This document shows, piece by piece, positions 1,391 to 40,605 of a stretch of 64,000 bases of DNA; the stretch's first letter is position 1; each line of letters begins with the position of its first letter. The stretch is from Verrucomicrobiaceae bacterium (GTDB taxonomy: Bacteria > Verrucomicrobiota > Verrucomicrobiia > Verrucomicrobiales > Verrucomicrobiaceae): assembly GCA_016795485.1 (NCBI GenBank), contig JAEUHM010000027.1:1-64000 (forward strand), in the 5' to 3' direction. Made by a program: the position numbers and the translations under genes. The notes beneath the pieces were generated by a model. That model saw nothing but the letters and a program-made list of their open reading frames with translations. It ran no database searches and had not been told where the DNA came from.

Positions 1391-1412
1391 AGTGACCGCA
1401 CCTCTTCCACCA

Positions 1413-1763: not shown

Positions 1764-2110
1764 ACCTCATTGTTAGCCCGGATGGCGTTCTCGATCTCAT
1801 CAGCATGGGTACTTACGTAATGCCAGGCCGCGTCCAGGTCATCCCGTGTCAGGTCCGGGTAATCGGCCATCAGTTCTGCGTCCGTCGCCCCCGCGCGCCT
1901 TGCCTCCTCCAGCATCCACACGGCAATGCGGGTCATACGAATGCAAGCCTCACCTCCACAGACTCCAGGCGTGTGCCGGATGAACGTCTTGCCCGGCCCA
2001 TCACCGCTCTTCCGCTGCTTGAGGAAGATCACAAAATCCAGCACCTCTGCCTGAAACGGCTCAGGGGCAGACTCGATCTCGCTGACGATGCGCTGGGTGA
2101 TCACGCTCAT
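1760..2110 (-). CDS. DUF433 domain protein with DUF2281-like N-terminus (putative antitoxin)
   Basis: From ATG 2110 this is a 116-residue protein. The first 35 residues (EVLDFVIFLKQRK) resemble DUF2281. The rest, with HTPGVCGGEACIRMTRI and the LMADYPDLTRDDLDAAWHY helix-turn-helix-like end, is a DUF433 domain. DUF433 proteins commonly accompany DUF5615 proteins as likely DNA-binding antitoxins. A longer frame opens with GTG at 2155, which shares one base with the dndB stop (TAGTG). I prefer ATG 2110 because the DUF2281-like segment starts there, but the GTG would couple it directly to dndB. It overlaps the next gene by 4 bp. Confidence 0.75.
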   Translation of the reverse strand: MSVITQRIVSEIESAPEPFQAEVLDFVIFLKQRKSGDGPGKTFIRHTPGVCGGEACIRMTRIAVWMLEEARRAGATDAELMADYPDLTRDDLDAAWHYVSTHADEIENAIRANNEV

Positions 2111-2154
2111 GAGAGAGGTTACATCCCTGCTGTCAGTTCGCAAGCAGCGGGGCA

Positions 2155-3411: not shown

Positions 3412-3911
3412 ACCTGCCATCCCTTCTTCGTACCTTTGAGTTTTCGATTGGGATTAGGCGTGGAGCCATCGCCATCAACATCGCGAAAACAAGCTTTGTC
3501 GGCGTTGACGACCCACCAGAAAAGAATGCTGAGGATACTGCCAACGAGCCCCCAAACGATTGAACCATCACGAATCGTGAAAGCTGACATGCCGATCAGA
3601 AGCACGAATACAGCAAACGCAATTATGCCGAATGACCGAAAATACGGCTGCCCTTCACTACTGCTGTCAACGTAGGCCGCCCCAGCAACGGCTGGGAAGT
3701 AAGTGCAAAGAGCAGCCGCAACCGCCGGCCAACTCCATTCCCCACTGAATCTATACTCCAATAACGAATACCAAATGCCAGCTCCACCAAGCCCAACTAC
3801 AGCAACAAGTAAATGCATCCAAAATGTCACAGATTTGAGCGGAGTCTTCAAGCGCCTCACCAGTTCGCCCGGTAAAAGGTCCAATGATTTGAGATCTTCT
3901 TTGATTGTCAT
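3408..3911 (-). CDS. multi-pass membrane protein within dnd operon
   Basis: A 167-residue protein I do not recognise. It has an N-terminal soluble segment of about 28 residues and roughly four hydrophobic segments: about 29-50, 63-81, 93-110 and 118-136. It ends with a polar, lysine-rich tail (NPNRKLKGTKKGW). It lies between the DndE-ATPase fusion (12 bp upstream) and dndB (4-bp overlap), so it is almost certainly co-translated with them. Standard DndABCDE and DptFGH sets do not include such a protein. It might anchor the modification complex or act as an effector, but nothing in the sequence shows which. Confidence 0.8.
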   Translation of the reverse strand: MTIKEDLKSLDLLPGELVRRLKTPLKSVTFWMHLLVAVVGLGGAGIWYSLLEYRFSGEWSWPAVAAALCTYFPAVAGAAYVDSSSEGQPYFRSFGIIAFAVFVLLIGMSAFTIRDGSIVWGLVGSILSILFWWVVNADKACFRDVDGDGSTPNPNRKLKGTKKGWQV

Positions 3912-3923
3912 GGTTTCGAGAAA

Positions 3924-5402
3924 TCAATTCCCTCCGTCCCTCCAGAACTGTCTCGTTCCACCCGTCGTGGTCTTGCCGCCGAGCCGCAGCACAGCGTCAC
4001 CTTTGTCCAGCATCTTTGAAACTGTGGAACCGAGGATCTCCTTCTGCTCCTTCGGCTTCAGGGTTTGCGGAGAGAAATGAACGCCTGCGGAGGCGAGGTC
4101 GGCAAAATCCACGCCATTGCTGAGGAACTTGTCGGCGTCTTGGCTGGCTAGCCAGAGAGGGAAGCCCCAGGAGCGCCCTTCGCGTGCGAGCTTCTCAAGG
4201 AGCTTGGCTTTGCCGTCCTTGGGCAAGATGTTGTGCGCTTCATCGACGAAGAGCACCATCTGAAGCGGCTGGATGCCTTTGCGCACACTGAGGTTCTTGT
4301 TGAGGCGCTCGATGAAGAAGTTCAGCACGAAGGCGACTACCAGCACGCGGGTGTCGTTATCGAGCGGCTTGAGGTCGATGATGTTCGAGCGACTGATCCA
4401 TTCCTCGAAGGGCCGCGCCTTGTCAGCGGTGGCAAAGATGTTCAGCTCCACCAGCTTGCGCAGCACGGACACTGCGACGCCTTCGGATTCGTCGTCTTCT
4501 AACTGTTGAACGAGCGAGGGAAAATCAGGACGACGCAGTGCCTGATAGGCAGAGCGCAACTCGTCTTCCTGATTTTGGCCCATCTGCGGGCCAAAGGCCC
4601 GGACTAGTGACGCAATGCGGGAGGCGATATTCGCCGTCTCGGGTCCGCTCTTACCCGCGTACAGCGGGTTGACCGGCAGCGGCGCATCGATGAGCCGGAG
4701 ATACTGCGCACCTGTGAGGTCGAAGAACTTCTTCCTGTTCTCAGCCTTCTCTTTGTCATCGGCGCTGGCTTCTTCGAGTTCGCCTTTCAAATCAAAGAAC
4801 AGGAACGATACGCCTTGCCTCGCAAGTTGGGCGAGAAGGTCGAGCGCGAGTTGGCTTTTGCCGGAGCCTGGCTGGCCTGAAATGATAAGCAAGCCATTCT
4901 TCGTCTCAGGGCCGTTCATACTCCACGGCTCAACCTCATTGAGCAGCTTCACCTTCACCTCCCGGTCCACCACGGTGAGCATCTTGCGTTTGCCTCCCCC
5001 GGCATCAACGAGGTTCACCGGCATTTGCAGTTCTGTGTTTTGCGCTCCGCGGAGGAGTTCAGCGACGAACTTCGCTTGATCACGCCCGCTCGATTCCCAG
5101 ATGTCCGCCATTCTCACACAACCAAACTCAAACGCCCGCCGAAACTCTCGTTGGAATGCCGAATCATCCATTTTTTGTCCAAAACGGAACCTGAGGGCTG
5201 CGCGATAGACTTCCTCAAGCGGACCAACCAGCGCATCCCAACTGATATCTTTGCCATTGCCTGTTGGTGCCTTGTAGTCCTGGGGCACTCCTTCCGCGAG
5301 TGCGAGACTAACGGCCGCCCGGCCAAGTACTGCTTTCGTCTTAGCTCCCACACGGGGATATACGTCTTCAATGAACTTCTCAGCAAAAAGGCTAGGGGTC
5401 AT
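3924..5402 (-). CDS. DndE domain fused to HerA/FtsK-like ATPase
   Basis: A protein of 492 residues. Residues 1-115 match the small DndE (DUF1832) fold: a helix with LGRAAVSLALAEG, then ISWDALVG, EEVYRAALRFRFG and EFRRAFEFGCVRMADI, which mirror the conserved SLAE, W..FGGE and C-terminal helix pattern of DndE. Residues 165-492 form a P-loop ATPase of the HerA/FtsK type: Walker A GQPGSGKS (176-183), LFFDLKGE (201-208), Walker B MVLFVDEAH (382-390) and WLASQD (417-422). DndE binds nicked DNA in the modification complex, so the fusion would couple a DNA-translocating or remodelling motor to sulfur insertion; that is inference. It lies 15 bp after dndD. The DndE assignment rests on motif similarity by eye. 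Confidence 0.82.
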   Translation of the reverse strand: MTPSLFAEKFIEDVYPRVGAKTKAVLGRAAVSLALAEGVPQDYKAPTGNGKDISWDALVGPLEEVYRAALRFRFGQKMDDSAFQREFRRAFEFGCVRMADIWESSGRDQAKFVAELLRGAQNTELQMPVNLVDAGGGKRKMLTVVDREVKVKLLNEVEPWSMNGPETKNGLLIISGQPGSGKSQLALDLLAQLARQGVSFLFFDLKGELEEASADDKEKAENRKKFFDLTGAQYLRLIDAPLPVNPLYAGKSGPETANIASRIASLVRAFGPQMGQNQEDELRSAYQALRRPDFPSLVQQLEDDESEGVAVSVLRKLVELNIFATADKARPFEEWISRSNIIDLKPLDNDTRVLVVAFVLNFFIERLNKNLSVRKGIQPLQMVLFVDEAHNILPKDGKAKLLEKLAREGRSWGFPLWLASQDADKFLSNGVDFADLASAGVHFSPQTLKPKEQKEILGSTVSKMLDKGDAVLRLGGKTTTGGTRQFWRDGGN

Positions 5403-5417
5403 GTATCAAAAGGGATA

Positions 5418-7502
5418 TCAGAGCTTCTTGCCGAAGTATTTCGGCTCAAGTCGTACTTGGTAATCATCAGTGCCTTCGATTCCTTCAGGTATTAAAGTGT
5501 AGCCGCGCCCAAACTGGTCGCGAACCTTTGCGAAAAGTGGTCCGTCTGGATCAATCTCAGCATTGGTCGCCAAAACGATGGACTGATGGCCTTCGCTACT
5601 CAGGTAAAGTTTATCGAGCACTGCTGCGCGAACTTCACGATCCAAGCGTCCAAGTGGGGTATCGACTACTAGCGGAGGAACAGTTTGGGCAAGTCGGCGA
5701 AGTGCTTCATTGAAGGCGAGGAGCCTCACCTGCCTTTGGCCTGCGGATGGATTTGCATCGTCCCACTGGATGCGTTCTCCACTCTTCCGAATGAGTTCAC
5801 ACTGCCAAAGCTCACCGGTGAATTGCATACCTTTGAACTCGTGACTACGTTCGGTGATCTCCAGCCAAAGGTCGCCCACCAGCTGATTGATCTGACGGCG
5901 CATCTGTTCAGATGCGCGCTTGCGCATAACGCTGGCGGCGTCACGGAATGCATGAGCTCGGGATGCTAGACTGCGGCCTTTCGAGGCTTTTTCAACGATT
6001 TCAGTCCAACGGCTTTCCTCGACCTTCAGACGGGTAATATCATTCTCGATTTGGATGCGCTGAGCGTCCAACTCTAACAACTCACGATCTATCGATTCCA
6101 ACTCAGCGCGCAGAGTGCCACGTCGCTCGTGTAGGCTCTTGCCTGCACCAATTGCAGCGATGTTCTGGTTTTGCTGCCGAATCTCATAGTCAAGGTCCTT
6201 GATATCGGCCTGGAGCGCCTCAAGCTTTCGGCAGGCGTTCTCAAGGCTTGAAACTTCAGCGGTGGCTGTCGCTAGAATCTGCCGCACAGAAAAGTTAACC
6301 TCTGGTCTATCACAGACAAAAATTTCAACGCCCTCAACCCCTTCGGGGGGAGGGTTAAAGAGGCTGAGAAGCGCTTTGTCGAGGCGTTCTGAGTAATAGG
6401 CGTGCGTGGGCGGTGAGAGCTTGTGCTGGGACTCAGGATCATCAAATACATCCGCTTTGATCGACGGAAGGCGGGGTTCGATGGCCGCTTTTCGATCAAT
6501 CCATTCTCGTTTCCGTTCCTCGCCTTCCAAATGAGCGGTAACCGCCACTCTAAGACCAGCGAGCAACGTGACCGGAATTGGGGCTTCCCAAGCTGCTTCC
6601 AGTTTACCCTCGATCTCACGTTTCGCACTCGCCACCTCATCTCTTGTGGTTTGGTCACGCTCAAGTTTGGCTGGGTCGACTGCCCCCAACGTCTTTAGTT
6701 GATCCTGTATATCGGCCAGCTCTGATGCTGCTTCTTGCTGCTTTTCGAGTAGGACCTCACGACGTTGATGATTGCCTCGCAGCTTTCCGTTCGTCAGGCT
6801 TTGGATTTGGGAACTGATGTCCGCCAGCGTCTCGGATGCCTCGCTGCCGCCATCGGCATCAACTTGCTTATTGGTGGCTGAGAAAATACTGCGAAGCTCG
6901 TCTTCCAGCCGCTCATAAGCCCACAGGCCAAGGATTCGGCTGATTGCCTGGACGATTTCAGTTTCGCCAAGGTTGACGTTTTGGCTTTTCTCCGCATCGA
7001 AAAAGAAAAACCGAGCGAGGTGGCGAGGAAGGAATGCGTCGCGAAGGCGCTCAATCATCTTCTCATCCTCTTCCACTTGCCCATCATTTGAACGCTCTGC
7101 CCACGAGCGCCATACCGGTGGCGAGTTCGGGCGAAAACGAATCTCCCGATGAAGAGTCAGTGTCTGCTCCTTACTGCTATCTGCATCCCGTTGACGAATA
7201 GCAACTGTCAGCGTGCAGGTATCTGAACCCTCGCGGCTTGCGCGCCGATTCAATGCCTTACCGAAACTGAAACGCGTTGCTTCTGATCCAGTCTCGACCT
7301 TACGTAGGTCTCCGAGACCGGCCTCTCCTGCAACTGCAAGATAAAGCGCCCTAAGGACATGTGTTTTCCCTGCTCCGTTCTTACCGCCAATCAATACGTG
7401 GGGAGAGCTGTCGGCTGGAGTGAGAAAATCAAAATTGGTGGTGTCATAGAACGGACCAAAATTGGTGATCGAGAGCGAGTCGATGGAAACAAGGTTTGCC
7501 AT
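5418..7502 (-). CDS. dndD: DndD, SMC-like ATPase of DNA phosphorothioation
   Basis: A 694-residue SMC/RecN-like ATPase, close to the usual DndD length. It has an N-terminal head with Walker A GGKNGAGKTH (39-48), a long coiled-coil middle, an ABC signature-like NPSAGQRQ (about 584) and a Walker B/D-loop VVDTPLGRLD (about 616). In Dnd systems DndD hydrolyses ATP and is thought to nick or open DNA for sulfur incorporation with DndC and DndE. It starts 3 bp after the dndC stop and precedes the DndE-ATPase fusion by 15 bp, matching the standard C-D-E order. Confidence 0.92.
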   Translation of the reverse strand: MANLVSIDSLSITNFGPFYDTTNFDFLTPADSSPHVLIGGKNGAGKTHVLRALYLAVAGEAGLGDLRKVETGSEATRFSFGKALNRRASREGSDTCTLTVAIRQRDADSSKEQTLTLHREIRFRPNSPPVWRSWAERSNDGQVEEDEKMIERLRDAFLPRHLARFFFFDAEKSQNVNLGETEIVQAISRILGLWAYERLEDELRSIFSATNKQVDADGGSEASETLADISSQIQSLTNGKLRGNHQRREVLLEKQQEAASELADIQDQLKTLGAVDPAKLERDQTTRDEVASAKREIEGKLEAAWEAPIPVTLLAGLRVAVTAHLEGEERKREWIDRKAAIEPRLPSIKADVFDDPESQHKLSPPTHAYYSERLDKALLSLFNPPPEGVEGVEIFVCDRPEVNFSVRQILATATAEVSSLENACRKLEALQADIKDLDYEIRQQNQNIAAIGAGKSLHERRGTLRAELESIDRELLELDAQRIQIENDITRLKVEESRWTEIVEKASKGRSLASRAHAFRDAASVMRKRASEQMRRQINQLVGDLWLEITERSHEFKGMQFTGELWQCELIRKSGERIQWDDANPSAGQRQVRLLAFNEALRRLAQTVPPLVVDTPLGRLDREVRAAVLDKLYLSSEGHQSIVLATNAEIDPDGPLFAKVRDQFGRGYTLIPEGIEGTDDYQVRLEPKYFGKKL

Positions 7503-7505
7503 GGC

Positions 7506-8852
7506 CTAAGCGGCTTCTTGGGGGGAGTTATCTTTGAGGTCGTCTTGAAGAATCTTCGTGAGTTCGGCAAGGAGGCCATGAGCCCGATTGTTTTCGCTGA
7601 ACTCTTCAACCTTCGAGACTAACCTTTGAAGGGTCTCTGGGGAAAGGCCCTTTTCCTGAGCGACTTCCGCTTCAAGCTTCCGCAGGCGAGCAGTGTTGCG
7701 TAAGTCGTGCATGGGTAGGCCGGAGTGAGCGTTTACGATGCGGGCGACACCACGACCGTCGTCTGGTTCGCGGGCTGACTTCCAGTATTGCTGAATGAGG
7801 AGTAGCTCTTCATCGCTAATTAGCTTCATTTTGGAAGCATCTTGCAATTTAAGCAACTCTTTGAGCAACATTTTACGGCCTTTCATGATGATAGGGCCAT
7901 TTCCCTCCGTGCCATTCATACGGCGGGTATCCCGCCAGCCGTTGTCTGGGTTCTGGACTTCGAGCAACAGCTCACGGAACTCCAACATCGACTCCATTCT
8001 CTCATCGCCATTGGCCATGAGCCCTTCACTTGCCTTGTCTCGCTCCACCACGGTGCAAGTCCAGCAACCAAAACGCGAGTTACCGCAACTCGGAGTACTC
8101 GTGTCGATATGGATCGGGCATTCTCCGCCCCCCGCGTCTCGGTAGAGCCGGTAAAGCTCCTGATTGCTACCACCCCAAGGGGGGGCATTTTGCAAAAGGT
8201 AGGCCCAGACTTGTTCAGTAGTTAGGTGCTCGATGGGGTTCGACACGTCGACCCTAGGCAGGTCTGGATGACGCCTCAGGCCATTCTTGAGTTCAATGCC
8301 AGCCAGTGTCTGGGAACGACTCGAGCTTTCGCCTCTGCGTGCACCAAGGTGCAAGATTGCTTGGCCTGTCCTCCCAAGAGTTCGTTCTACAAATTGGTTT
8401 ACCGGATCAATTTTCATCCTCTGGGTACACCAACGGAAATGGCGGTTCGGTGGCGGATAACCGCGACCAATCAGGTTCACCCAGAACGTATCAGTGGGTG
8501 GTGGCTTGAGAAGGTGAACCGACACATTGAGGTTCTCCCGTTCGGAATAGCGGCGCATTCGCTCGAGCGTATCTTCGATCATCCCCACGATCGCAGGAAT
8601 CTCTACTCTCGTATCTGTACATAGAACAGATATGGGCTTGGTTCTGCGTTCAACGGATATGGAAGACAACATCCCAAAGATGAGGCCTGCCACCATTGTA
8701 GAGTCCTTCCCTCCACTGAATCCGATTAGCCAGGGACGGGGGTCTGAGAGATATAGGTCGCGAAGGGAGTCTTCGATTTCTTGAAACACCCAGCAGGCAT
8801 AACATCGCGAGGCGTCACACGTCAACACCAACCCCAAGTTGGCCGAGGTCAA
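7506..8852 (-). CDS. dndC: DndC, PAPS reductase-family sulfurtransferase
   Basis: A 448-residue protein of the adenine nucleotide alpha-hydrolase/PAPS reductase family. The PP-loop is SGGKDS (46-51). Cysteines suitable for a 4Fe-4S cluster occur in FRWCTQRM and in the cluster CPIHIDTSTPSCG..GCWTC. DndC receives sulfur from DndA and activates the DNA backbone with ATP. The frame opens with TTG at 8852; a GTG at 8789 would give MFQEIEDSL, which fits the usual DndC N-terminus better, so the true start is uncertain. It is the first gene of the minus-strand operon; the operon promoter should lie in 8853-9107. Confidence 0.92.
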   Translation of the reverse strand: MTSANLGLVLTCDASRCYACWVFQEIEDSLRDLYLSDPRPWLIGFSGGKDSTMVAGLIFGMLSSISVERRTKPISVLCTDTRVEIPAIVGMIEDTLERMRRYSERENLNVSVHLLKPPPTDTFWVNLIGRGYPPPNRHFRWCTQRMKIDPVNQFVERTLGRTGQAILHLGARRGESSSRSQTLAGIELKNGLRRHPDLPRVDVSNPIEHLTTEQVWAYLLQNAPPWGGSNQELYRLYRDAGGGECPIHIDTSTPSCGNSRFGCWTCTVVERDKASEGLMANGDERMESMLEFRELLLEVQNPDNGWRDTRRMNGTEGNGPIIMKGRKMLLKELLKLQDASKMKLISDEELLLIQQYWKSAREPDDGRGVARIVNAHSGLPMHDLRNTARLRKLEAEVAQEKGLSPETLQRLVSKVEEFSENNRAHGLLAELTKILQDDLKDNSPQEAA

Positions 8853-9036: not shown

Positions 9037-9053
9037 GCAGTCGGGACGACTGC
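9037..9053. repeat. REP-like hairpin (GCAGTCG stem)
   Basis: gcagtcg-gga-cgactgc forms a perfect 7-bp stem with a 3-nt loop. The same hairpin recurs at 10459-10475, and a truncated copy starts at 9963. It is an interspersed palindromic repeat of the REP type, here just upstream of the dnd operon. Confidence 0.7.
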
Positions 9054-9107
9054 ACCACTTTCTAGGCCGGAAGGTGTGGAACGGGGTCGGTGGGAGTGTG
9101 GGGTGCT

Positions 9108-10108: not shown

Positions 10109-10422
10109 AGGCGTTCCGAGGTTAAGTTTTTCGATTTCCAGGGTAAGGAGTGGCGTTCCGAAGTTAAGCTTTTCGATTTCCAGGTTCCGGAATGGCGTTC
10201 CGAGGTTAAGCTTTTCGATTTCCAGGTCAAGGAATGGCGTTCCGAGGTTACGGACTGGCACCGCTTGGTTAAGGAACGGCATTTTCTAGTTAAGACATGT
10301 CATGGCTTAGTTACGGAATGGCGTTTCTTGGTTAAGGAATGGCACCGCTTAGTTACGGAATGGCGTTCCGAGGTTCAATTTTTCGATTTCCAGGTTAAGG
10401 AATGGCGTTCCGAGGTTCAGTT
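10109..10422. repeat. 21-bp tandem repeat array, about 15 units
   Basis: The array is built of 21-bp units of the form tggcgttccgaggttaagga plus one base, alternating with units carrying ttcgatttccaggttaagg. Copies of gcgttccg fall at 10111, 10153, 10195 and 10237, exactly 42 bp apart, so pairs of units form a 42-bp higher-order repeat; the central units are single and more diverged. The shared core is ggttaaggaa. Because 21 is a multiple of three, it reads as heptapeptide repeats, but no credible start or domain accompanies it. Confidence 0.85.
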
Positions 10423-10458
10423 TTGTGGACGATAAAGGCTGAGGGAGGATCACTGATC

Positions 10459-10475
10459 GCAGTCGGGACGACTGC
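10459..10475. repeat. REP-like hairpin, second full copy of GCAGTCG type
   Basis: The sequence is identical to the hairpin at 9037-9053, including the following acca. It lies 37 bp after the 21-bp tandem array. Confidence 0.7.
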
Positions 10476-10618
10476 ACCATGTTCTTGGTGCCTTTGTGTC
10501 TTGGTGTGAGGCTTGGTGTTTGTTTTGCGGATGAGTGTTCGCGCTCGTTTGTCGATCAGATACCAGAGACCGCACTGGGGGATGCTCGTGGATGATGTCA
10601 TGTGGCCTGCGGTGACGA

Positions 10619-18512: not shown

Positions 18513-19424
18513 TTACGCGCCAAAGTCTTCCTCTTCCACGCTCATCAGCGAGAGTAGGCGATTCAAATCCTCCACTCCGTAGTAGTCGATCTCGATCCGG
18601 CCCTTTTTCTCTCCATGCGAGATGGATACGTTGGTAGAAAAATGCCTCGTCAAGCGCTGCTCCACAGACCGCACCGCCTGGATCACATCTGCCTCTTTCT
18701 TTGTCGGCTCCGGCGGCTTCGGTGCAGGCTTTAGGATCTGCTGCACCAGACGCTCCACCGCGCGCACGGTCAGATTCTTCCGGATCACTTCGTCAGCAGC
18801 TGCTTCTTGATCCGCCGACTTCTTCAGCGTCAGCAAAACTTTAGCGTGGCCCGTGCTGATCCGCCCATCCACCAGCATATCACGCACCGGCGTTGGCAGT
18901 TCCAACAACCGGATCGCATTCGCCACAGTCGCACGGTTCTTACCCACACGCAGCGCGATGTCTTCCTGCCGCATGTTGAAGTCCTTCGACAGGCGCTGAT
19001 AAGCCTCCGCTTCCTCGATCGGGTTGAGCCCCTCACGCTGGAGGTTCTCGATCAATGCCATCTCCAGCACGTCCTGATCAGACGCCGTCCGGACGATCAG
19101 AGGGACTTCTTTAAGCCCCAGCTCTCTCGCGGCACGCCAGCGGCGTTCTCCCGCGATCAGCTCCAGCTTCCCGTTCACCGCACGGACGATCAGCGGCTGG
19201 ATAATCCCATGCTCACGGATTGAGTCCATCAACTCCGTCAGCTGATCCCCCGCGAACGTCTTCCGTGGCTGCAATGGGCTTGGCACCACCTGCTCCAGCG
19301 CTACACGACGCACCACATCACCCGGAGCCGGCTGGGACAAGGACGGTGCCTTGCTCACTCCCGCGACATTTGCGGGAGTGCTGATCAAGGCACTGAGACC
19401 TTTACCGAGAGATTGCTTGGCCAT
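18513..19424 (-). CDS. parB: chromosome-partitioning protein ParB
   Basis: A 303-residue ParB/Spo0J protein. The start MAKQSLGKGLSALI is typical. It carries the N-terminal CTP-binding/ParB-Srx fold with SPLQPRKTF, GIIQPLIVR and GERRWRAAR, the ENLQREGLNPIEEA motif, a helix-turn-helix (MRQEDIALRVGKNRATVANAIRL) for parS recognition and a C-terminal dimerisation segment. It would load at parS sites near the origin. No parA gene lies beside it: the upstream neighbour on the same strand is a tyrosine recombinase, 98 bp away, and the downstream neighbour a lipoprotein. Confidence 0.95.
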   Translation of the reverse strand: MAKQSLGKGLSALISTPANVAGVSKAPSLSQPAPGDVVRRVALEQVVPSPLQPRKTFAGDQLTELMDSIREHGIIQPLIVRAVNGKLELIAGERRWRAARELGLKEVPLIVRTASDQDVLEMALIENLQREGLNPIEEAEAYQRLSKDFNMRQEDIALRVGKNRATVANAIRLLELPTPVRDMLVDGRISTGHAKVLLTLKKSADQEAAADEVIRKNLTVRAVERLVQQILKPAPKPPEPTKKEADVIQAVRSVEQRLTRHFSTNVSISHGEKKGRIEIDYYGVEDLNRLLSLMSVEEEDFGA

Positions 19425-19522
19425 AAGCGGGGGCCGAGATTAGAGGGCTGTTGCCCCGTGGCAAATGTGTTTTGCATTTTCTCACCCGAAGTTATTCACA
19501 ACACCGTCTCTGCCCCCAGATT

Positions 19523-20422
19523 TCAAGCCCTTGGATGCGCTTCGTCATACACTTGGCGCATCCGTTGGGTTGACACATGCGTGTAGATCTGGGTCGTCGC
19601 CAAGCTCGCATGCCCCAGCAGCGTCTGCACACTCCTCAGGTCCGCACCCCGATTCAGCAGATGCGTGGCAAAGCTGTGCCTGAACTTATGCGGCGTCACG
19701 TGCACCGGCAGCCCACACGCCTTCCAGTACTTCTCCACCACATCAGAGATCGCCTGGCTCGTGATCCTCTTCCTCACCTTACTGATGAAAAGCGGTCCCT
19801 CCCGCACATTCGCCTTCACCCGGTAGCGCTGCACTGCCTCCAAGGCCAAGGGCCCTATGGGGCACACCCGTTCCTTCTTCCCCTTCCCCACCACCCTTGC
19901 CGTCTCCTGCACCGTATCAAGATCCTCCACATCCAGAGACGCCAACTCCGCCAAACGCATCCCCGTGCTGTAAAACATCTCCAGGATCGCCACATCCCGC
20001 TCCGGAGCCCACACCGGTGCTTGTTGCGGATGCTCCATCTTCAGCGGCGCCTCCAGCATCTCCAGCACCTGCTTCTCCGTCAGCACCACCGGCAGACGTC
20101 GTTCCTGCTTCGGCAGTTGCACCTCCACCAGCGGATTCACCTTCCAGCCATGCCGCCGAGTCAGATACTTGTGGAAACTCCGCAACGCAGCGAAATGCAG
20201 CCTCACCGTGGCCCTCCCCATCTCCTGCTTCATGAGATAAAACAGGTAACTCCGGTAATCATCCGCCGTCTGCGCCTCCCAACCAGCAAACGAAGGCCTC
20301 CACTCCCTGAATCGCCTCAGAGCCAGTTCATAGTTCGCCAAAGTACGCACAGAAGCCCGGCGCTCCACCTTCAGGAACTCCAGAAACGCATCAGCCAGAA
20401 GGTCTTCCCTCTCATCAGCCAT
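19523..20422 (-). CDS. XerC/XerD-type tyrosine recombinase
   Basis: About 299 residues from ATG 20422 (MADERED). It contains the N-terminal SAM-like domain (FLKVERRASVRTLANYELAL) and a catalytic domain with the R-K-H-R-H-Y set: STGMRLAEL, GKGKKER, PHKFRHSFATHLL, LLGHASL and the tyrosine in TTQIYTHV. Length and motifs fit chromosomal XerC or XerD, which resolves chromosome dimers at dif, rather than a phage integrase. XerC and XerD cannot be told apart by eye. The frame extends to 20494 without coding character. Confidence 0.88.
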   Translation of the reverse strand: MADEREDLLADAFLEFLKVERRASVRTLANYELALRRFREWRPSFAGWEAQTADDYRSYLFYLMKQEMGRATVRLHFAALRSFHKYLTRRHGWKVNPLVEVQLPKQERRLPVVLTEKQVLEMLEAPLKMEHPQQAPVWAPERDVAILEMFYSTGMRLAELASLDVEDLDTVQETARVVGKGKKERVCPIGPLALEAVQRYRVKANVREGPLFISKVRKRITSQAISDVVEKYWKACGLPVHVTPHKFRHSFATHLLNRGADLRSVQTLLGHASLATTQIYTHVSTQRMRQVYDEAHPRA

Positions 20423-20548
20423 ACCCAAGGCCCCCAAAGTGCCAGCCCAAATGCAAATCGCAAGCCTCCCTCCGCCAACGATGCGTAAACGCACTGCTCG
20501 GGTGCAAAATCCATCAAGACATCGCCTGGCTCGTCGTCACAGTGCGCC

Positions 20549-24434: not shown

Positions 24435-25694
24435 TTAGGCCAGACCGGTCATGGTGCCGCTGCTGGTGGCGAACTTTTCTTCCTCCACTCCTAGCTGCTG
24501 CAGGGCGCTGAGGTAGAGGTTGGGCAGAGGGTAGTTCTCGCTCTGGTCAAAGGCGAGGTGCTGGCCGTGCTTGAAGCCGCCGCCGGCAAAGAGGACGGGC
24601 ATGTTCTTGTTGTCGTGGCTGCTGGCGTTGCCCAAGTTTGAGGTCATGAGCACCATGGTTTCGTCCAGGAGCTTGTCGGTCTTGAGCTTGCGCAAGAAGG
24701 CTGCCCACTGGTTGATCATTCCCTGCTCCACGATGGCGAGTTGAGCGAGTTTTTCCTCGTCCATGCCGTGGTGGCTGAGGCCGTGGTAGCTCTCGTCCAC
24801 GCCTTCGATGCCTTGCACGCCGTTGCCGGTGACGTGCAGCGTGACGAAGCGGGTGCTGTCGGTCATGAGCGCCATGTGGATGATGTCCAGAAAGATGCCT
24901 TCCACGGCGACTTCGTTGTCGCGCGGCACAGCGGCGGGTGGCTTCATGCTGACGCGGGGCTTAGGCCGGTGGGTCCAGGCTTCATTGGCCGCAAGACGTT
25001 GTTCGAGGTCGCGCACGCTGGTGAACCAGGCGTCTAGCTTGTCGCGATCTGCCCCGCCAAGCTCGCGCTGGAGAGCTTTTGCCTCAGCACCCACGAGATC
25101 CATGATGCTGCGGCCTTTTTGGATGAGCTCAGCCTGCCGCTCCTGCTCCTGCGCGCTGTCGTCCACAAAGAGCCGGGTGAAGAGCTTCATGGCGCTGTTC
25201 TCGGCAGGAATCATCGAGCCGTTTTCGGTGTAGGAAGGGCTGCTTTGGCTGTTGGTGTTGAGCACCAGGGAGGGAAATCGGGTCTCGTGGCCCAAATGAC
25301 GCGCCATGAGTTGATCCAGCGAGATGGTGTTGCGAGAAGTGGCTCCGCGTTGGTTGGGACAGGCGGAAAAGATGCTGCCCTCGGCGGTGTGCCCGCCGGT
25401 GACGCCTGGATGGGACGAGCCTGAAACGACGGTGAAGTCCTGCCGGAGGTCCTGAATGGACTGCAAGTAGCGAGAGGGCTGGTAATCGCGCCCAGTGGTG
25501 CTGGGCACGAGGTTGGGGTTATGCAATCCAAGCGCCAAACTCACGCCCACAAACCTCCGCGCCTTCGGCCCCTGAGGAGCGCTCAACGCCAAAGCCGGAG
25601 TCATGGCCTCCAACAAAGGCAAACCAAGACTAACCCCCGCCCCACGAAGAAAAGTGCGGCGAGAAAGGTGTTTTTTGAAGGTGAAAGTGGCCAT
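24435..25694 (-). CDS. DUF1552 family exported protein
   Basis: A 419-residue protein with a twin-arginine signal (LSRRTFLRGAGVSLGLPLLEAM). The DUF1552 pattern is clear: HPGVTGGHTAEGSIFSAC, ISLDQLMARHLG, FPSLVLNTNS and a C-terminal VLMTSNLGNASSHDNKNMPV segment with GGGFKHGQHL. Such proteins, related to DUF1501/sulfatase-like folds, normally lie next to DUF1592 cytochrome-type genes in planctomycetes and verrucomicrobia. Here that partner is 4.4 kb away, at 30091. The biochemical role is unknown; a periplasmic process coupled to c-type haem is suggested by the usual partner. Confidence 0.88.
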   Translation of the reverse strand: MATFTFKKHLSRRTFLRGAGVSLGLPLLEAMTPALALSAPQGPKARRFVGVSLALGLHNPNLVPSTTGRDYQPSRYLQSIQDLRQDFTVVSGSSHPGVTGGHTAEGSIFSACPNQRGATSRNTISLDQLMARHLGHETRFPSLVLNTNSQSSPSYTENGSMIPAENSAMKLFTRLFVDDSAQEQERQAELIQKGRSIMDLVGAEAKALQRELGGADRDKLDAWFTSVRDLEQRLAANEAWTHRPKPRVSMKPPAAVPRDNEVAVEGIFLDIIHMALMTDSTRFVTLHVTGNGVQGIEGVDESYHGLSHHGMDEEKLAQLAIVEQGMINQWAAFLRKLKTDKLLDETMVLMTSNLGNASSHDNKNMPVLFAGGGFKHGQHLAFDQSENYPLPNLYLSALQQLGVEEEKFATSSGTMTGLA

Positions 25695-25710
25695 GGGTTT
25701 GCACGATAAC

Positions 25711-25735
25711 GAAAGGCGAGGGGTGGTCTATCGCC
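25711..25735. repeat. 25-bp direct repeat, left copy
   Basis: The 25 bases gaaaggcgagg to tctatcgcc are identical to 28923-28947. This copy lies 17 bp upstream of the DUF1552 start codon and 35 bp beyond the end of the VKOR-fusion gene, so the two copies bracket that gene. Confidence 0.85.
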
Positions 25736-25769
25736 GGTGTCGTGCCAACTTTGGCCGAAGTGTGGGACC

Positions 25770-28724
25770 TCAATGCTCATGAACCTCACGGTAGTTGGGA
25801 CCGTAGGGAAAGTTGAGCGTGCAGGCCAGATGATTGCGCAACCTTAGCAGTTGTGTCTTGTATTTCGGATCACCCGTCTGGGCAAATTGAGTGCGCAGCA
25901 CATCGGCGGCTTTGCGCATCTTCTCCACTCGACGCTTGAGCGTATCCTGCATGATGTCGGGGAAATACGCGTGGATGTAAGTGGCGAAACAAAGAGCAAA
26001 AGCCCCGGTCAGGTCATCCATGGCCGGTATGGACTCCACCCGCACGCCCAAACGTTTTGCTGCTGAAGTAAAGGTCCGAACGAAGTGATCGAAGTTGTCC
26101 CAGTATTTGGCAAACTTCTGATAGTTGCCCATCGGGTCGGTGTTCAAGGCTTTAGTGATCAGCTCAGACTTACCCAACTCTCGTCCATCAGCGATGACCT
26201 GACTAAATGCAGCGGCGGCTTCGATGTAGACTGAATCTTCCTTCTGGCTGTCAAAAACCCTTTTGACCACGTCATTGAGCTTCACGCAATCAGCGCTTGG
26301 GTCTTTGTCGTTGTAAAAGCATCCGTTAAAAAGGTCCCTCGCAGCCTCTCTGTATTGTTTGAGGGAATGCGGATCTCTCTGAAGGCCCGATAAATACTGC
26401 TGATCCAAGGTTTCAGTTTTGGCTAACAGAGACGTTACTTCCTCATAAGCAGTTTCAAAAGAGGAGTCGCTTGTAACAGGCTTGATTGCGGGAGCTGATT
26501 TGTTAGCAACCGAACCATTAGCAGCCAAAACACGATCCGCGTATTTCTCCGCCGAACTCACCGAGTAGTAATCGAGATGATTCTGCAAATTTGGTTTATC
26601 TTTATGAAAGTGGAATAATGGCGCTGCGTGTACACCTGGGCTGCTCGAGTCGCGGGAAAATGTTCTCCAGCGATATAAGTTAGACAATCGAGTTATCAGA
26701 GCGTGCACTGAACTCGATTGAATCCAACCATCTTTTGTAAGGCTGCTATTCAGAGCATAAGATATGGATGCATCTTTTTCACTTCTTTGCGTCCGAAGAA
26801 GCACACCCTCATCCGTAAATGCCGCATAACAACTGCACGCGTCCGTTTCAGTGGGCAGTATCATCTCTGCCACTTCCGCACCATCGCATGTCATGGGCAA
26901 TGCATGAAAAACTGCCTCGGAAAACTTTTGTCTGAGCGGTTCAAAGTCTTGAGTCGTAAGACATGTGCCGGAGGTTGTTTTTCCGTTCCCCTTTTCGGCA
27001 TTTCTAAGTGACTCATGTTTTTCATCTGGTCCCGTCTCATCATCCGAAGGCCAAACCGGCAGAGCCACCTTTCCATTGGGTAGCCTGTCGCTGTGTGAAG
27101 AGACAAAGATGTCCACCTTGAGATACTTGGAGATGTCTTCCCCTTCTTGAAGGTGCTTTTTGCACTCCAGGTCTTTCAGAAACCCCTGTTTCAGCGATTC
27201 GAGAGCGGCGTCATTTTTGAAGAACTGCTCAAAGGCTGGCTTCGATGTGGGGATGTGTCGCACAGCACTTCCCATCCGAGCTTTTGCCCGGGCAATCGAA
27301 TCCTTTACCGCCTTGGTGGTGTCACTCGACAGGACAATTACCCGGGTGTTCTTGGGTTTGGCTTGGCTCAAGGCATCCAAAAAGTGAATGGTATCCCCGG
27401 CCGCCGGATCGGTGCCGGGATTTTTGGGGTCGGAGTTTAGATTTTCGCCCGCACCGTTGAAGAGGATGGTCAGATTCCCGCAGAACTTTCTTCCACTGCA
27501 CGGCTCGCTCGACTGGCTGGCAGCGGCTGGCCAGGGCAGCCCTTTCCCGGTGAGGGAAACGAGGTCCTTCACACCGGAAGGTGCCCCCAGCAGGATCTGG
27601 CTCTCAACCTGGAGCTGAGGCAACATCACCTCACGGCCCGTGACACGTGCGTTCTCGGCCATCAGTTCACGAGTCTTCTGGATCAGGTCCACCGTCCAGG
27701 CGTGGTGCTTTTGCCGCGCGGCGTCCCACTCCGTCTGGCCACCGAGAGCGAGACGGACCGCCTCGGTGACTGCCTCGCGAGTCGGGAGCAGATCGGAGCG
27801 GTAGAGTCGTGCGCTGAGCTCGGCCCAGGCCTTGGGGTTCTCGCGCCAGAGGATGAGCAGGGCAGTCTGAAGCGCAGAGCTCAACTCGGAATCAAGGGTG
27901 CCCGGAAGGAACACAATGGCCACCTCGCCCTCCGTTTGAGTCTTCCATGCCTCGCTGAGTTGCTGGCTGGTGTCCCGACAGTGGTGGCAGGTGGGATCGG
28001 TGATGCAGACGATGAGGTGCCTGGCGCTGATGGATCCCAGCCGTGGCAGCATTTCCATATCCAAGCGGAAGCGGCCTCCGTGCAGGGACAGCCAGTGGGT
28101 CCCATCCGCCTCAGTCCTCGCCACCGGCAGGGCCGTGGCCGGGAGCTTCTTGGCGTTTTCCTCGGACTTTGCCGTGGGCATCAGGCTGGAGAGAACACCG
28201 AGGACCAGCAGATGAGCAAGGGCGGACCACGCGATGGAAGGTGCAAGCCGCACCGGCTTCACTTTCCCAGGGGCAGGATGCGCCCCGTTCCGCCAGACGC
28301 CCACGATGCCGCAAGCTGCCCCCGCCGTGGCGAGGAGGTGGATGCTGCAACACCAAGGGCACCATGCCCTGAGGAAAATGGCCTGAACGCCAGTGAAAAA
28401 GAGGGCTGCGGCGAGGTTCCCACTGAGCAGGCAGATGAGCCAGGACCTACCCGACGAGGGGGAGCCAAGCAGAATGAGCTGCATCAGGTAGAAGGCCGCG
28501 CCCAACCATGCGGTCGGGATTCGCCCAACCGATGCCCAATCAGAACGCAGCACGGTGTCGCAGTCTGAACCCACGGGACAACCAGCAATCCCGCCCGAAC
28601 CATAGCGCAAACTTTGCCACCCCAGCCACGCGCTCAAAACCACGGCAGCGGAGAGAAGAACATGGGCGAGCACCAGTGGCGAATACACCATGTTGCGAGA
28701 TGAATGGCGGCCGGAATCGTTCAT
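25770..28724 (-). CDS. VKOR-DsbA-like fusion with putative clan CD peptidase domain
   Basis: From ATG 28724 a 984-residue protein. Residues about 10-180 form a VKOR domain: several membrane helices, C49 and C55 (GCPVGSDC) and the active CPWC (122-125). Another helix near 165-182 is followed by a thioredoxin/DsbA-like domain with CHHC (246-249). Residues about 410-710 are unlike any VKOR protein I know but resemble a caspase/legumain fold: LTILFNGAGEN, TRVIVLSSD, VDIFVSSHSD with H544 followed by GKVALPVWPSDD, then ETDACSC with C630/C632. The last 270 residues are helical and unrecognised. The domain order suggests oxidative folding or redox control of a peptidase. The upstream frame to 28838 is probably not translated. 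Confidence 0.78.
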   Translation of the reverse strand: MNDSGRHSSRNMVYSPLVLAHVLLSAAVVLSAWLGWQSLRYGSGGIAGCPVGSDCDTVLRSDWASVGRIPTAWLGAAFYLMQLILLGSPSSGRSWLICLLSGNLAAALFFTGVQAIFLRAWCPWCCSIHLLATAGAACGIVGVWRNGAHPAPGKVKPVRLAPSIAWSALAHLLVLGVLSSLMPTAKSEENAKKLPATALPVARTEADGTHWLSLHGGRFRLDMEMLPRLGSISARHLIVCITDPTCHHCRDTSQQLSEAWKTQTEGEVAIVFLPGTLDSELSSALQTALLILWRENPKAWAELSARLYRSDLLPTREAVTEAVRLALGGQTEWDAARQKHHAWTVDLIQKTRELMAENARVTGREVMLPQLQVESQILLGAPSGVKDLVSLTGKGLPWPAAASQSSEPCSGRKFCGNLTILFNGAGENLNSDPKNPGTDPAAGDTIHFLDALSQAKPKNTRVIVLSSDTTKAVKDSIARAKARMGSAVRHIPTSKPAFEQFFKNDAALESLKQGFLKDLECKKHLQEGEDISKYLKVDIFVSSHSDRLPNGKVALPVWPSDDETGPDEKHESLRNAEKGNGKTTSGTCLTTQDFEPLRQKFSEAVFHALPMTCDGAEVAEMILPTETDACSCYAAFTDEGVLLRTQRSEKDASISYALNSSLTKDGWIQSSSVHALITRLSNLYRWRTFSRDSSSPGVHAAPLFHFHKDKPNLQNHLDYYSVSSAEKYADRVLAANGSVANKSAPAIKPVTSDSSFETAYEEVTSLLAKTETLDQQYLSGLQRDPHSLKQYREAARDLFNGCFYNDKDPSADCVKLNDVVKRVFDSQKEDSVYIEAAAAFSQVIADGRELGKSELITKALNTDPMGNYQKFAKYWDNFDHFVRTFTSAAKRLGVRVESIPAMDDLTGAFALCFATYIHAYFPDIMQDTLKRRVEKMRKAADVLRTQFAQTGDPKYKTQLLRLRNHLACTLNFPYGPNYREVHEH

Positions 28725-28922
28725 GAGTAACGCGCAGGTATTGATCGAATGGTTAGGTTTCAGCCGACCGATTTCAAGGCGGAAAGTCTTTGAGCCCGCA
28801 CCGGGCAGCAACGGATGAGAACCGCAGACATAGGTCACAGATTCACCGTGTGTCGCCCACTTCAGAAACCTCAGTGGTGGAGGAATGGATCGGGCTGCAT
28901 GATCTTCGAGGAAGATGAAACC

Positions 28923-28947
28923 GAAAGGCGAGGGGTGGTCTATCGCC
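28923..28947. repeat. 25-bp direct repeat, right copy
   Basis: Identical to 25711-25735. It lies 199 bp upstream of the VKOR-fusion start codon, in the gap before the small zeta-partner gene. Flanking bases on both sides differ between the copies. Confidence 0.85.
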
Positions 28948-29073
28948 TGGAGGATGGAAGTGGAAGAAAGGATCCCTCAGGAGTTGGGCCAAGATCAACT
29001 GCCAGCCGCGTTTGCCGTTGGCGGCTTCGTGGTCTACGATTACCCTCTGAGAACGACGCCCCCTGCATTTCAA

Positions 29074-29301
29074 ATGAACGACTCCGACTCTGCGCTCGAC
29101 TATCTAGAGCAACAAATACCCTCGCTCTCCGCTGCTGCTGTGGACGTGGCCTACTGGCAGGCGCTCAGCAGCGGACTGGAGGTGCTCATCAGCGACGATG
29201 ATGGCATTTACCAAGCATTGCCGGATGGAACTAAGAAGCTCATTAAGCCGACAGACAAGCCGCTCAGCATTCCGGTGGGGACTCGGATCAAGATTCCCTG
29301 A
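29074..29301 (+). CDS. small protein preceding zeta-like toxin (putative antitoxin)
   Basis: From ATG 29074 about 75 residues (MNDSDSALDYLEQQ). It has an N-terminal helix, then short strands (GLEVLISDDDGIYQALPDGT) and a lysine-rich end (KKLIKPTDKPL). It starts within a longer frame that opens at 28915 but lacks coding character there. It ends 3 bp before the zeta-like gene, so it is the likely partner. It does not look like a classical epsilon or HTH antitoxin. Confidence 0.65.
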   Translation: MNDSDSALDYLEQQIPSLSAAAVDVAYWQALSSGLEVLISDDDGIYQALPDGTKKLIKPTDKPLSIPVGTRIKIP

Positions 29302-29304
29302 CCT

Positions 29305-30054
29305 ATGAGCGTGCCCCGTATGCGCATGTTTGCAGGTCCGAATGGTTCTGGCAAAAGCACGATCAAAAGTGTCGTGCCCGCTAATCTGCTCGGCATTTAC
29401 GTGAATCCAGATGAGATTCAGAAGGAGATTGAAGACCGTGGGTTTCTGGATGTCCATCAGTACGATGTGAAGACGACCCGAGATGAAATCTTGGGATATT
29501 TCATGGATTCGCCTTTGCTGAGGAGAGCAGACTTAGATGACGAGGCTGCGTGCTTGCGTTTCACCGATGGCAAGCTGGACTTTTTTGAGGTGATTGTTAA
29601 CGCCTACTTTGCTTCTGTGGCTGCCGACTTCCTCCGGCAAAAGCTGTTAGAGCAGCGTAGATCATTCTCATTTGAGACCGTGATGTCATCGCCCGATAAG
29701 GTGCAACTCCTACAGAAGGCGCAAGGGCTTGGCTACAGGACCTATCTTTACTACATAGCCACCGATGACCCGTCTATCAATGTGTCTCGGGTAAAAGCCC
29801 GCGTTCAATTAGGAGGCCATGACGTGCCGGAGGATAAAATCGTCAACCGGTATGCCCGGTCACTCAATTTGCTCTTGGACGCCGTGAAGCACACGAACCG
29901 CGCTTATCTTTTCGACAACTCCAGGCATGGCGGTGCTCGCCTCTGGGTGGCGGAGATAACCGATGGCCAAGACTTGGAAGTGAAGTGTGATCCCATGCCG
30001 CATTGGTTTGAGAAGGCTATCTGGAACAAAGTTTCAAGGGGCCGCTCACACTAG
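29305..30054 (+). CDS. zeta-toxin family P-loop kinase
   Basis: A 249-residue P-loop protein with Walker A AGPNGSGKST (10-19), YVNPDEIQKEI, a middle RRSFSFETVMSSPDK and the LYYIATDDPSINVSRVKARVQLGGHDVPEDKIVNRYARS segment characteristic of zeta/ATP-GTP-binding AbiQ-like 'predicted ABC-type ATPase' proteins. Zeta toxins phosphorylate UDP-GlcNAc-type peptidoglycan precursors; whether this member does so is not shown. It is translationally close to the 75-residue upstream gene. Confidence 0.82.
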   Translation: MSVPRMRMFAGPNGSGKSTIKSVVPANLLGIYVNPDEIQKEIEDRGFLDVHQYDVKTTRDEILGYFMDSPLLRRADLDDEAACLRFTDGKLDFFEVIVNAYFASVAADFLRQKLLEQRRSFSFETVMSSPDKVQLLQKAQGLGYRTYLYYIATDDPSINVSRVKARVQLGGHDVPEDKIVNRYARSLNLLLDAVKHTNRAYLFDNSRHGGARLWVAEITDGQDLEVKCDPMPHWFEKAIWNKVSRGRSH

Positions 30055-30090: not shown

Positions 30091-32400
30091 CTACTTCTTC
30101 ATGAACACCTCGCTGAGCATGGAGGCTTTGAGGAGTTGGCGGATGGTTGGGGTCTCGGTGGCGAGTTTGTCCAGGGTGGGCTCGTCGCTCAGCCGGATGG
30201 GGGAGCCGGTGGCGTAGGTGAGGAACTGGGCAACGAACCCGCGGGCGAGTTGCTGCTTGCGCTGGCCATAGATTTTCTGCCAAGCGCGGAGGTCGGCAAA
30301 CGGAGCGCCATCTGGTGTGCGACCGGAGGGATCGACCCGCGCGCCTTTGTCTCCTTTGCCATAGCTGACGCGCCAGAGCCCCACGGGATCGAAGTTCTCC
30401 AGGGCAAAACCTGGTGGGTCGATGGTCTGATGGCAACTGGCGCAAGACTCGTTGTTGCGGTGCTTGTCGAGTTGGTCGCGGATGGAAACGGCACCGCGAA
30501 TGTCTGGCTCAATGGCGGGAACTCCGGGCGGTGGCGGCGGAATGCGCTCACCAAGAATGCGCTCATTGACGAAAACTCCTCTCACGACGGGTGAGGTGTG
30601 CGTGCCGTCTGCGGTGACTTTCAAAATGGCACCTTGGGCGACGAGACCGCCACGCACTGAGCCATCCACGAGTTTCACGCGCTGAAGCCCTGCCCCTGGG
30701 GTGAGGCTGACTTTCTCCTCGTAGTGCCGCGCGAGCCGCTCATTGAGGTAAGTGTAACCAGAGTCAACGAACGCGGTGATGCTGCGGTCGGACTTGATGA
30801 GATCGCTAACATACAGACGCGTCTCTTGAAGCATGGACTCCTGCAGAACGGGGTCGAAGGTCTTGAAGAGCCGGGTGTCTGGGCTGGTGAAGTCGATCTG
30901 GTTGAGCTTGAGCCACTGGTCCGTGAAGCTGGCAATGAAACGCTCTGCCTTGGGATCGTCCAACATGCGGTCGATCTGAGCTGAGAGTGTGGCGAGTTCC
31001 TTCAATTTTCCCTGATCGGCCAGGGTGATGAGTTCCTCGTCTGGCATAGAGGTCCAGAGAGCGTAGCTGAGTCGAGTAGCGAGAGCATGATCGTCGAGAG
31101 GGCCCGGAGCCTCGATAAAGCTGAGGAAGCGAGGCGAGCAGAGGATAGCCCGATAGGCAGCGCGTAAGGCTTCCGGCACAGTGCCACCTTCTTTGAGCAA
31201 GCCCTGAGCGATGCCTTGATAAGCGGCCACTTGTTCGTTCGTGACCGGTCTGCGGAAGGCGCGGGCCGCAAAGTCTTTGATGATCGTGGGCACGTTTTCC
31301 TTGACCAGCTCATGGCTTCCGAACAGGCGCTTGCGCACCTGTTGGCTGCTCGCATAGGGATAGATGCGCTCGATTTGGATGCCGGTGTGCGAGATGCCCT
31401 GGAAGCCCTGCTTGGCAAGGCTGCGTCCGTCAAACGAGACATTTCCCCCTTTGGCTCCGGTGGGTGCTTTCTTCTGAGTGGCGTCGTTTGGCCGCAGTTC
31501 CAGCATGTGGTCTTCCTGCATCCAGGCCTCAAACGTGAGGTCGCGCGGCTCTTCTGTCGCCTCGACAAGGCCGACCATGTAAAGCATGGGCGCGTCTGAA
31601 TAACAGGTCCCCGAGCGCAAGGTGCCCCAGACAACTCCTGCGTCTGAGGGGTTGATGGCTTTCACCTGACGCAAGGTAATGCGATACCAGCCGTCCTCTG
31701 GCACACTGGTAGCGTTCATGCGACCAAAGAACTGCAGCGTGATGGGCCACGAGATGCTTTTGCCATCCTTCAGGTCGGGGCCACGATAGTTGCCTCGGGT
31801 CTTCTGAGCGAGGTCTTTGGGCGTGTAGAACTTTTTGAAGGTCTTGTCGCCTTCCAAGGCACGATCAAATGCCTCATCGAGCGCCAAATCTGCCACGTCC
31901 AGGTAACGTGCGAGCTGGTGTTGGGAGAGTTGCTGCCCATCGGCCACGGTTTCAAAACCATGAGAGATGCGATCCTCGGGCAAAAGGGTCTTGAGGGGTC
32001 GGTCGATGCCGAGCAAGTCGTGCAGCGTGTGATCATACTCGACTCTCGTGAGGCGGCGGCCCCTCACACGACCGCGAGCAGCGATGTCTGCCTTGTCCGC
32101 ACTGAAGAGAGGGGCCTTCAGAGCACTGAGAAAGGCGGTTTTGTCCGCAGGTTCTGGCTGAGGCTTCTTCTTGGGCGGCATTTCGCCATCGCGCACTCGC
32201 TCCATCACGCGGACCCATTTTTCAAAAGCGCTTCCGTCTGCCAAATCCCAGCCAAGGGCCATCAAATCGAGGCCTCCTTTTTTCACATCGGCATCATGGC
32301 AGTCGGTGCAGTGCCGGGACATGAAGTCGGCAATGCCTGGGGGCTGGTCAGCGAACACGGTGGCCGCCAGCAGGGGTAACGTGAAAAGGGGGAGTCTCAC
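30091..32400 (-). CDS. DUF1592/DUF1588/DUF1585 cytochrome-type protein
   Basis: About 769 residues from GTG 32400, chosen because it gives a clean signal peptide (MRLPLFTLPLLAATVFA); the frame opens at a TTG at 32430. The mature start holds a haem-binding CTDCH, followed by DUF1587-type sequence (TRVEYDHTLHDLLGID), DUF1595, DUF1592 (ATRLSYALWTSMPDEEL), DUF1588 (GGLVAQGAILKVTADGTHTSPVVRG cut by TSP, then CASCHQTIDPPG with a second CXXCH) and DUF1585 (FVAQFLTYATG). This planctomycete-type cytochrome c architecture normally partners DUF1552. It is divergent from nuoA. Confidence 0.88.
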   Translation of the reverse strand: MRLPLFTLPLLAATVFADQPPGIADFMSRHCTDCHDADVKKGGLDLMALGWDLADGSAFEKWVRVMERVRDGEMPPKKKPQPEPADKTAFLSALKAPLFSADKADIAARGRVRGRRLTRVEYDHTLHDLLGIDRPLKTLLPEDRISHGFETVADGQQLSQHQLARYLDVADLALDEAFDRALEGDKTFKKFYTPKDLAQKTRGNYRGPDLKDGKSISWPITLQFFGRMNATSVPEDGWYRITLRQVKAINPSDAGVVWGTLRSGTCYSDAPMLYMVGLVEATEEPRDLTFEAWMQEDHMLELRPNDATQKKAPTGAKGGNVSFDGRSLAKQGFQGISHTGIQIERIYPYASSQQVRKRLFGSHELVKENVPTIIKDFAARAFRRPVTNEQVAAYQGIAQGLLKEGGTVPEALRAAYRAILCSPRFLSFIEAPGPLDDHALATRLSYALWTSMPDEELITLADQGKLKELATLSAQIDRMLDDPKAERFIASFTDQWLKLNQIDFTSPDTRLFKTFDPVLQESMLQETRLYVSDLIKSDRSITAFVDSGYTYLNERLARHYEEKVSLTPGAGLQRVKLVDGSVRGGLVAQGAILKVTADGTHTSPVVRGVFVNERILGERIPPPPPGVPAIEPDIRGAVSIRDQLDKHRNNESCASCHQTIDPPGFALENFDPVGLWRVSYGKGDKGARVDPSGRTPDGAPFADLRAWQKIYGQRKQQLARGFVAQFLTYATGSPIRLSDEPTLDKLATETPTIRQLLKASMLSEVFMKK

Positions 32401-32500
32401 TACCGGCGAGAACGGCAGGACTGGGGCCAACTTTCAGCCCAATCGCAGTGGGGAATGACAGTTTGACGCCATGAGAGCCGCCGCTAGAGTCTCGGCCGTT

Positions 32501-40263: not shown

Positions 40264-40605
40264 TCCAAAAAAGGCTTGTGCGGTCCATTGGGAAATCCAA
40301 ATGGCTCAAAAAAGGCTTTTTTGGTCCACTTGAGAAAAAAAGCACGCCAAAAAAGGCTTACGCGACCCACTTGGGAATCCAAACGGCTCAAAAAAGGCTT
40401 TTTTGGTCCACTTGAGAAAAAAAGCACGCCAAAAAAGGCTTACGCGGCCCACTTGGGAATCCAAACCGCTCAAAAAAGGCTTTTTTGGTCCACTTGAGAA
40501 AAAAAGCATGCCAAAAAAGGCTTACGCGACCCACTTGGAAATCCAAATGGCTCAAAAAAGCCTTTTTTGGTCCTCCTGGGAAAAAAAACATGCCAAAAAA
40601 GCCCC
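40264..40605. repeat. 41-bp tandem repeat array, paired into 82-bp units
   Basis: The unit begins caaaaaaggctt and alternates two types, one followed by ttttggtccacttgag and the other by acgcgacccacttgggaa. The ggctcaaaaaa junction falls at 40303, 40385, 40467 and 40549, exactly 82 bp apart. About eight half-units are present. Since 41 is not a multiple of three, the frame is not kept and the array is unlikely to code. Confidence 0.85.

Follow-up and report, generated by a model that had tools for sequence, protein, structure and literature searches.

In the 64,000-nucleotide stretch of DNA analysed here (the window), a foreign-looking gene encoding a VKOR-thioredoxin fusion protein is bracketed by two identical copies of a 26-bp direct repeat, CGAAAGGCGAGGGGTGGTCTATCGCC, and lies within a 4.4-kb interval that splits a conserved gene pair, DUF1592 and DUF1552, whose members are contiguous in most relatives. 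We think it rather probable that the short junction of these two genes took up accessory genes, with the VKOR gene arriving second by illegitimate recombination, and that the repeat is the scar of this event.

The repeat pair and the interval around it

From left to right, the interval and its borders comprise DUF1552, 15 bp, the left repeat, 34 bp, the VKOR gene, 197 bp, the right repeat, 126 bp, an antitoxin-like gene, a zeta-like gene and DUF1592. The individual features are as follows:

24435-25694, minus strand: DUF1552 gene, the downstream member of the conserved pair, start intact (Pfam E = 4.1e-72)
25710-25735, plus strand: left copy of the 26-bp direct repeat, an exact match to 28922-28947, ending 15 bp upstream of the DUF1552 ATG
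25736-28921, no strand assigned: unit between the repeats, 3,186 bp, made up of 34 bp after the VKOR stop codon, the VKOR gene and 197 bp upstream of its ATG
25770-28724, minus strand: VKOR-thioredoxin fusion gene, 984 aa (Pfam VKOR E = 3e-12; Thioredoxin_4 E = 1.1e-4, below its cut-off)
28922-28947, plus strand: right-hand repeat copy (26 bp), in intergenic DNA 126 bp upstream of where the antitoxin gene probably starts
29074-29301, plus strand: antitoxin-like small gene, 75 aa, start set from homolog alignments, no Pfam, NCBIfam or PADLOC match
29305-30054, plus strand: zeta-toxin-like kinase gene (Pfam Zeta_toxin E = 4.1e-10)
30091-32430, minus strand: DUF1592/1588/1587/1595/1585 (PSCyt/PSD) gene, upstream half of the pair, end intact (Pfam; partners in relatives align through residue 779)

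The two copies have the same orientation and agree at 26/26 bp. Local alignment of positions 25601-25830 with 28801-29080 returned the 26 bp alone, with no longer stretch of diverged similarity around them; the flanks are unrelated and the edges sharp. A preliminary description of this DNA had correctly reported a perfect repeat with differing flanks, but gave its length as 25 bp and thus missed one base at the left; its statement that the copies enclose just the VKOR gene and its upstream region, about 3.2 kb, agrees with the 3,186 bp obtained from the coordinates. Exact direct pairs of this length are expected by chance about 5e-7 times in 64 kb of the window's composition and about 0.01 times over the whole genome on both strands; a chance origin of the pair is excluded.

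The same description had named a dispersed motif as the finding that would speak against it, and the searches turned up nothing of the kind. In the assembly of this genome (6,495,270 bases, 61 contigs), only these two copies were found at up to 3 mismatches, and a reversed-pattern control gave zero matches at the same threshold. A dispersed motif or REP-like family, considered as a candidate, was thus ruled out by the presence of two copies in 6.5 Mb. An 18-bp core of the repeat gave 16 matches in this genome at up to 3 mismatches compared with 5 for its control; since the 14 matches outside the pair all lie at exactly 3 mismatches and none at 1 or 2, there is no graded family of related sites. 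Among 239 genomes of the order, a 21-bp core at up to 2 mismatches was not above chance outside the genome itself, with 2 matches (L072 and L073) versus 6 for reversed-pattern controls, as counted by hand; both near-matches run antisense within a long related coding frame. Viral contigs contained no exact match to the repeat.

Direct repeats as such are not rare in this genome. In 864,000 bases of its interior sequence, window included, we surveyed direct repeats of at least 20 bp spaced 0.5-10 kb apart, with copy number counted in the sampled 1.2 Mb only, and found 33 rows with two copies there. A sorting by eye, which used shared offsets rather than annotation, assigned nearly all of them to repeat arrays within genes, to REP-like families or to sets of blocks with a common offset; by the same sorting the window pair, a single isolated block with copies 3.2 kb apart (>1 kb), stands out in the 864-kb sample. 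Contig C7 has a 23-bp pair with a spacing of 2,328 bp, which may likewise be an isolated block. Elsewhere in the window there are a tandem array of an 82-bp unit (40265-40601, 4.1 copies, 92% match) with a 27-bp direct repeat on either side of it (at 40113 and 40751), and a 21-bp palindromic repeat, GCAGTCGGGACGACTGCACCA, at 9037-9057 and 10459-10479, beside which lies a 42-bp tandem array (10110-10424). The palindromic repeat occurs 7 times on both strands of a 1.2-Mb sample of the genome at up to 2 mismatches. A ParB-family gene and an XerC-like recombinase gene stand side by side at 18513-20494, a setting of chromosome maintenance.

In composition the VKOR gene is a chimera: its first 400 codons have 63.7% GC and 75% GC3, similar to the neighbouring genes, and the rest 50.3% GC and 55% GC3. 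Its ATG is at 28724, with the open frame extending up to a GTG at 28838. Relatives of the protein cover about residues 1-420, i.e. the VKOR-thioredoxin part, save for one weak C-terminal match, and this part was matched in 7 of 57 genomes and in 11 of 288 genomes of the phylum, its own genome being counted in both. The 584-residue C-terminal part, of far lower GC, is almost devoid of relatives, its sole match being 28% identity over residues 624-726 in one genome (L009); a single-sequence structure model of it had a mean pLDDT of 40.9 and was unusable.

To the right of the unit lies a candidate type II toxin-antitoxin pair of the zeta type, in which the zeta domain is present and the adjoining small gene matches no named family. 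The antitoxin-like frame can be read from 28915, in which case the right repeat would form its coding start. This was ruled out by the nine best homologs from outside the genome (65-75% identity), whose alignments begin only at residues 45-54 of the longer frame, and the start was therefore moved from 28915 to 29074, which places the repeat in the spacer. Both copies are intergenic, and each contains GGCGA-N11-TCGCC. A promoter scan gave one sigma-70-like match, at chance level, and none in the spacers.

The DUF1592-DUF1552 junction in related genomes

The DUF1552 protein is 78-85% identical to its orthologs in genomes of the same family. A DUF1592 gene lies upstream of DUF1552 on the same strand in 60 of the 72 DUF1552 loci compared, with gaps of up to 59 bp in 50 of them, 70-110 bp in five, 473-492 bp in three, and 3,571 and 6,617 bp in one each, so that DUF1592 ends at most 110 bp upstream of DUF1552 in 55/72 loci. 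Most of the closer loci have a partner DUF1592 with 58-68% identity, versus about 35-47% for non-partner copies. Of the remaining 12 loci, six start less than 200 bp from the end of a contig, L147 matches residues 309-419 only, and five (L079, L085, L133, L137 and L143) have no partner-like DUF1592 directly upstream; for two of these five, L137 (Brevifollis gellanilyticus) and L143 (a Prosthecobacter MAG), the 8 kb preceding DUF1552 on its upstream side yielded no DUF1592 gene. In the window, the distance from the DUF1592 stop to the DUF1552 start is 4,396 bp. Since both partners are intact, retain their order and orientation and are contiguous in most relatives, the whole of this interval is best read as an insertion. 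A comparable arrangement is found in the PSCyt-encoding neighbourhoods of PMC5615132, where a PSCyt3-type gene stands beside a gene of an unknown-function family, although in the window the pair is split by 4.4 kb.

These 4,396 bp, which are extra compared with nearly all relatives, hold the VKOR-thioredoxin chimera, the antitoxin-like gene and the zeta-toxin-like gene, and the repeats bracket only the VKOR part. The preliminary proposal of an insertion with duplication of the sequence upstream of DUF1552 is supported as regards insertion and falls short as regards extent, the extra DNA including the antitoxin/zeta pair that the repeats leave outside. None of the VKOR, antitoxin and zeta genes occurs at the 72 DUF1552 loci, and the repeat, at up to 5 mismatches, is absent from all of these junctions and from the other loci examined outside this genome. 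The preliminary description had also proposed looking in related genomes for a version with one repeat copy and no VKOR gene; the 72 loci, 239 genomes of the order and 68 genomes of the family yielded none. The DUF1552 leader and the region upstream of the antitoxin gene may each be the source of the duplicated sequence; neither of these intergenic stretches is carried by any relative searched, and for the right spacer (28725-29073) the 68 family genomes contained no meaningful homolog, the three short matches outside the genome having E values of 0.0026-0.008. The region had no relative in plasmid and phage collections.

Other genes have entered the same junction elsewhere. In each of three loci (L084:7526-8000, L095:7516-8000 and L115:2592-3085), a single 23S_rRNA_IVP (PF05635) gene, with imperfect inverted repeats (15-37 bp) close to its ends, lies exactly between the protein-coding genes DUF1592 and DUF1552. 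Locus L091 has a GIY-YIG/DUF4357 gene at this place, and L086 a 6.6-kb, possibly defence-related insert (1387-7949) encoding a 1,837-aa DUF4011/AAA/MTES_1575/WGR protein (DUF4011-helicase) and an M48-like protein.

Origin of the repeat

When the VKOR unit is removed by computation, DUF1552 and the antitoxin gene are separated by a divergent spacer of 167 bp containing one repeat copy, plausibly an earlier state of the locus. The antitoxin/zeta pair would have arrived first and created this spacer facing DUF1552; the VKOR gene would then have entered it together with its own upstream region by illegitimate, short-homology-type recombination, with 26 bp of that spacer ending up on either side. 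On this view the repeat would be a scar of the junction, functionless in itself, and the VKOR gene could be deleted now and then, at low frequency, by replication slippage. We favour the VKOR gene as the second insertion because (i) the unit contains no recombinase or transposase gene, terminal inverted repeats or dif arms, (ii) the plasmid and phage collections contain no relative of the region, and (iii) the 167-bp spacer is a plausible prior state. The arrangement fits a separate insertion of the VKOR unit that duplicated 26 bp; since no empty-site relative (one repeat, the zeta pair, no VKOR gene) was found in the searched genomes, we can only infer the order of events.

The unit resembles the small variable segments (microdiversity loci) of PMC2884548, a setting in which short direct repeats are amply documented, in lying between intact genes, in having a repeat below 30 bp and in lacking mobile-element genes. 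By that account, direct repeats flank 10-18% of the variable segments in three species; 66-94% of the repeats are shorter than 30 bp, which lies under the RecA threshold reported for E. coli, and they are put down to short-homology illegitimate recombination or replication slippage. Here a direct repeat of 26/26 bp is present at both boundaries, and the junctions of the relatives lack the entire 4.4 kb; no close single-copy strain was found. That source compares strains of one species, whereas a strain without the segment is lacking here.

Two further points speak against this order and mode of events: the repeat, at 26 bp, is long for an event driven purely by microhomology, and six-base inverted arms, GCACGA and TCGTGC, surround the left copy, one arm to either side of the presumed edge of the insertion. 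The arms hint that the left context may have been continuous from the outset, the right copy being the later addition. If so, the VKOR gene would already have stood beside DUF1552, and 26 bp of the DUF1552 leader would have been copied as templated filler to the VKOR/antitoxin junction when the zeta pair joined, the bracketing being a coincidence of template distance. The arms suggest an originally continuous hairpin at the left copy, the flanks of the right copy lack such arms, and the zeta pair does lie outside the repeats. However, no significant hairpin was found (fold z -1.5 and -1.2), and in none of the 72 loci does a VKOR gene stand beside DUF1552. We consider such copying unlikely.

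That a direct repeat brackets exactly one gene would also suit the attachment sites of a non-autonomous integrative cassette, dif-module-like or integron-like, moved in trans by a tyrosine recombinase, of which the genome offers candidates in 10 Phage_integrase (PF00589) matches, among them the XerC-like gene at 19523-20494. In the Acinetobacter dif modules of PMC6449649, pdif sites bracket genes that often stand next to toxin-antitoxin genes, and the window likewise has one gene between short, recombination-sized repeats with a putative toxin-antitoxin pair nearby. Unlike those modules, it is chromosomal, has two copies only and no further modules, and its repeat lacks the 11+6+11 architecture given there: instead of a 28-bp site with palindromic inner arms and a 6-bp spacer there are 26 bp in which, at a 6-bp spacer, at best 3/6 inner arm bases are complementary. 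The unit itself has no recombinase gene, the genome has no third copy and the viral contigs none, relatives of the region are lacking from the plasmid and phage collections, and the XerC-like gene, which scores below the NCBIfam XerC cut-off, adjoins the ParB gene in a housekeeping context. A cassette of this kind is thus very unlikely. We give little credence, too, to a shared regulatory element, an operator or RNA hairpin serving DUF1552 and the VKOR/antitoxin spacer: the intergenic position of both copies and their common GGCGA-N11-TCGCC would suit it, but the distances differ (15 bp to the DUF1552 ATG, 197 bp to the VKOR ATG and 126 bp to the antitoxin ATG), the genome contains no copies at 1 or 2 mismatches, and the folds are ordinary. 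Direct repeats around an insert are the usual mark of a transposon's target-site duplication, which is nevertheless extremely improbable here, as the gene in the unit matches no transposase family, and the inner ends of the unit share 2/8 and 5/20 bases and hence form no terminal inverted repeats. Moreover, 26 bp exceeds typical insertion-sequence target duplications. The repeat most likely represents an ordinary gene-insertion scar and not a new mobile element; as to the recombination hotspot that the preliminary description gave as an alternative, any loss of the VKOR gene at a repeat of 26 bp would proceed by slippage-type events, and a dedicated excision system is unlikely.

The junction as a site for accessory genes

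It seems very doubtful that an undescribed route of site-specific recombination brings single genes to the DUF1592/DUF1552 junction, with the 26-bp sequence as its attachment site; were it so, the junction would be a preferred landing site, and the five other insert-bearing loci hold unrelated genes. As an insertion scar, the repeat marks a clean case in which a single accessory gene was slotted between two co-oriented genes, leaving both unharmed and the scar still readable. The repeat would hardly surprise specialists, and the more general point is the recurrent use of the junction: this place within a conserved gene pair of Planctomycetes and Verrucomicrobia, whose function is unknown, repeatedly takes accessory genes, which may help to find such cargo elsewhere.
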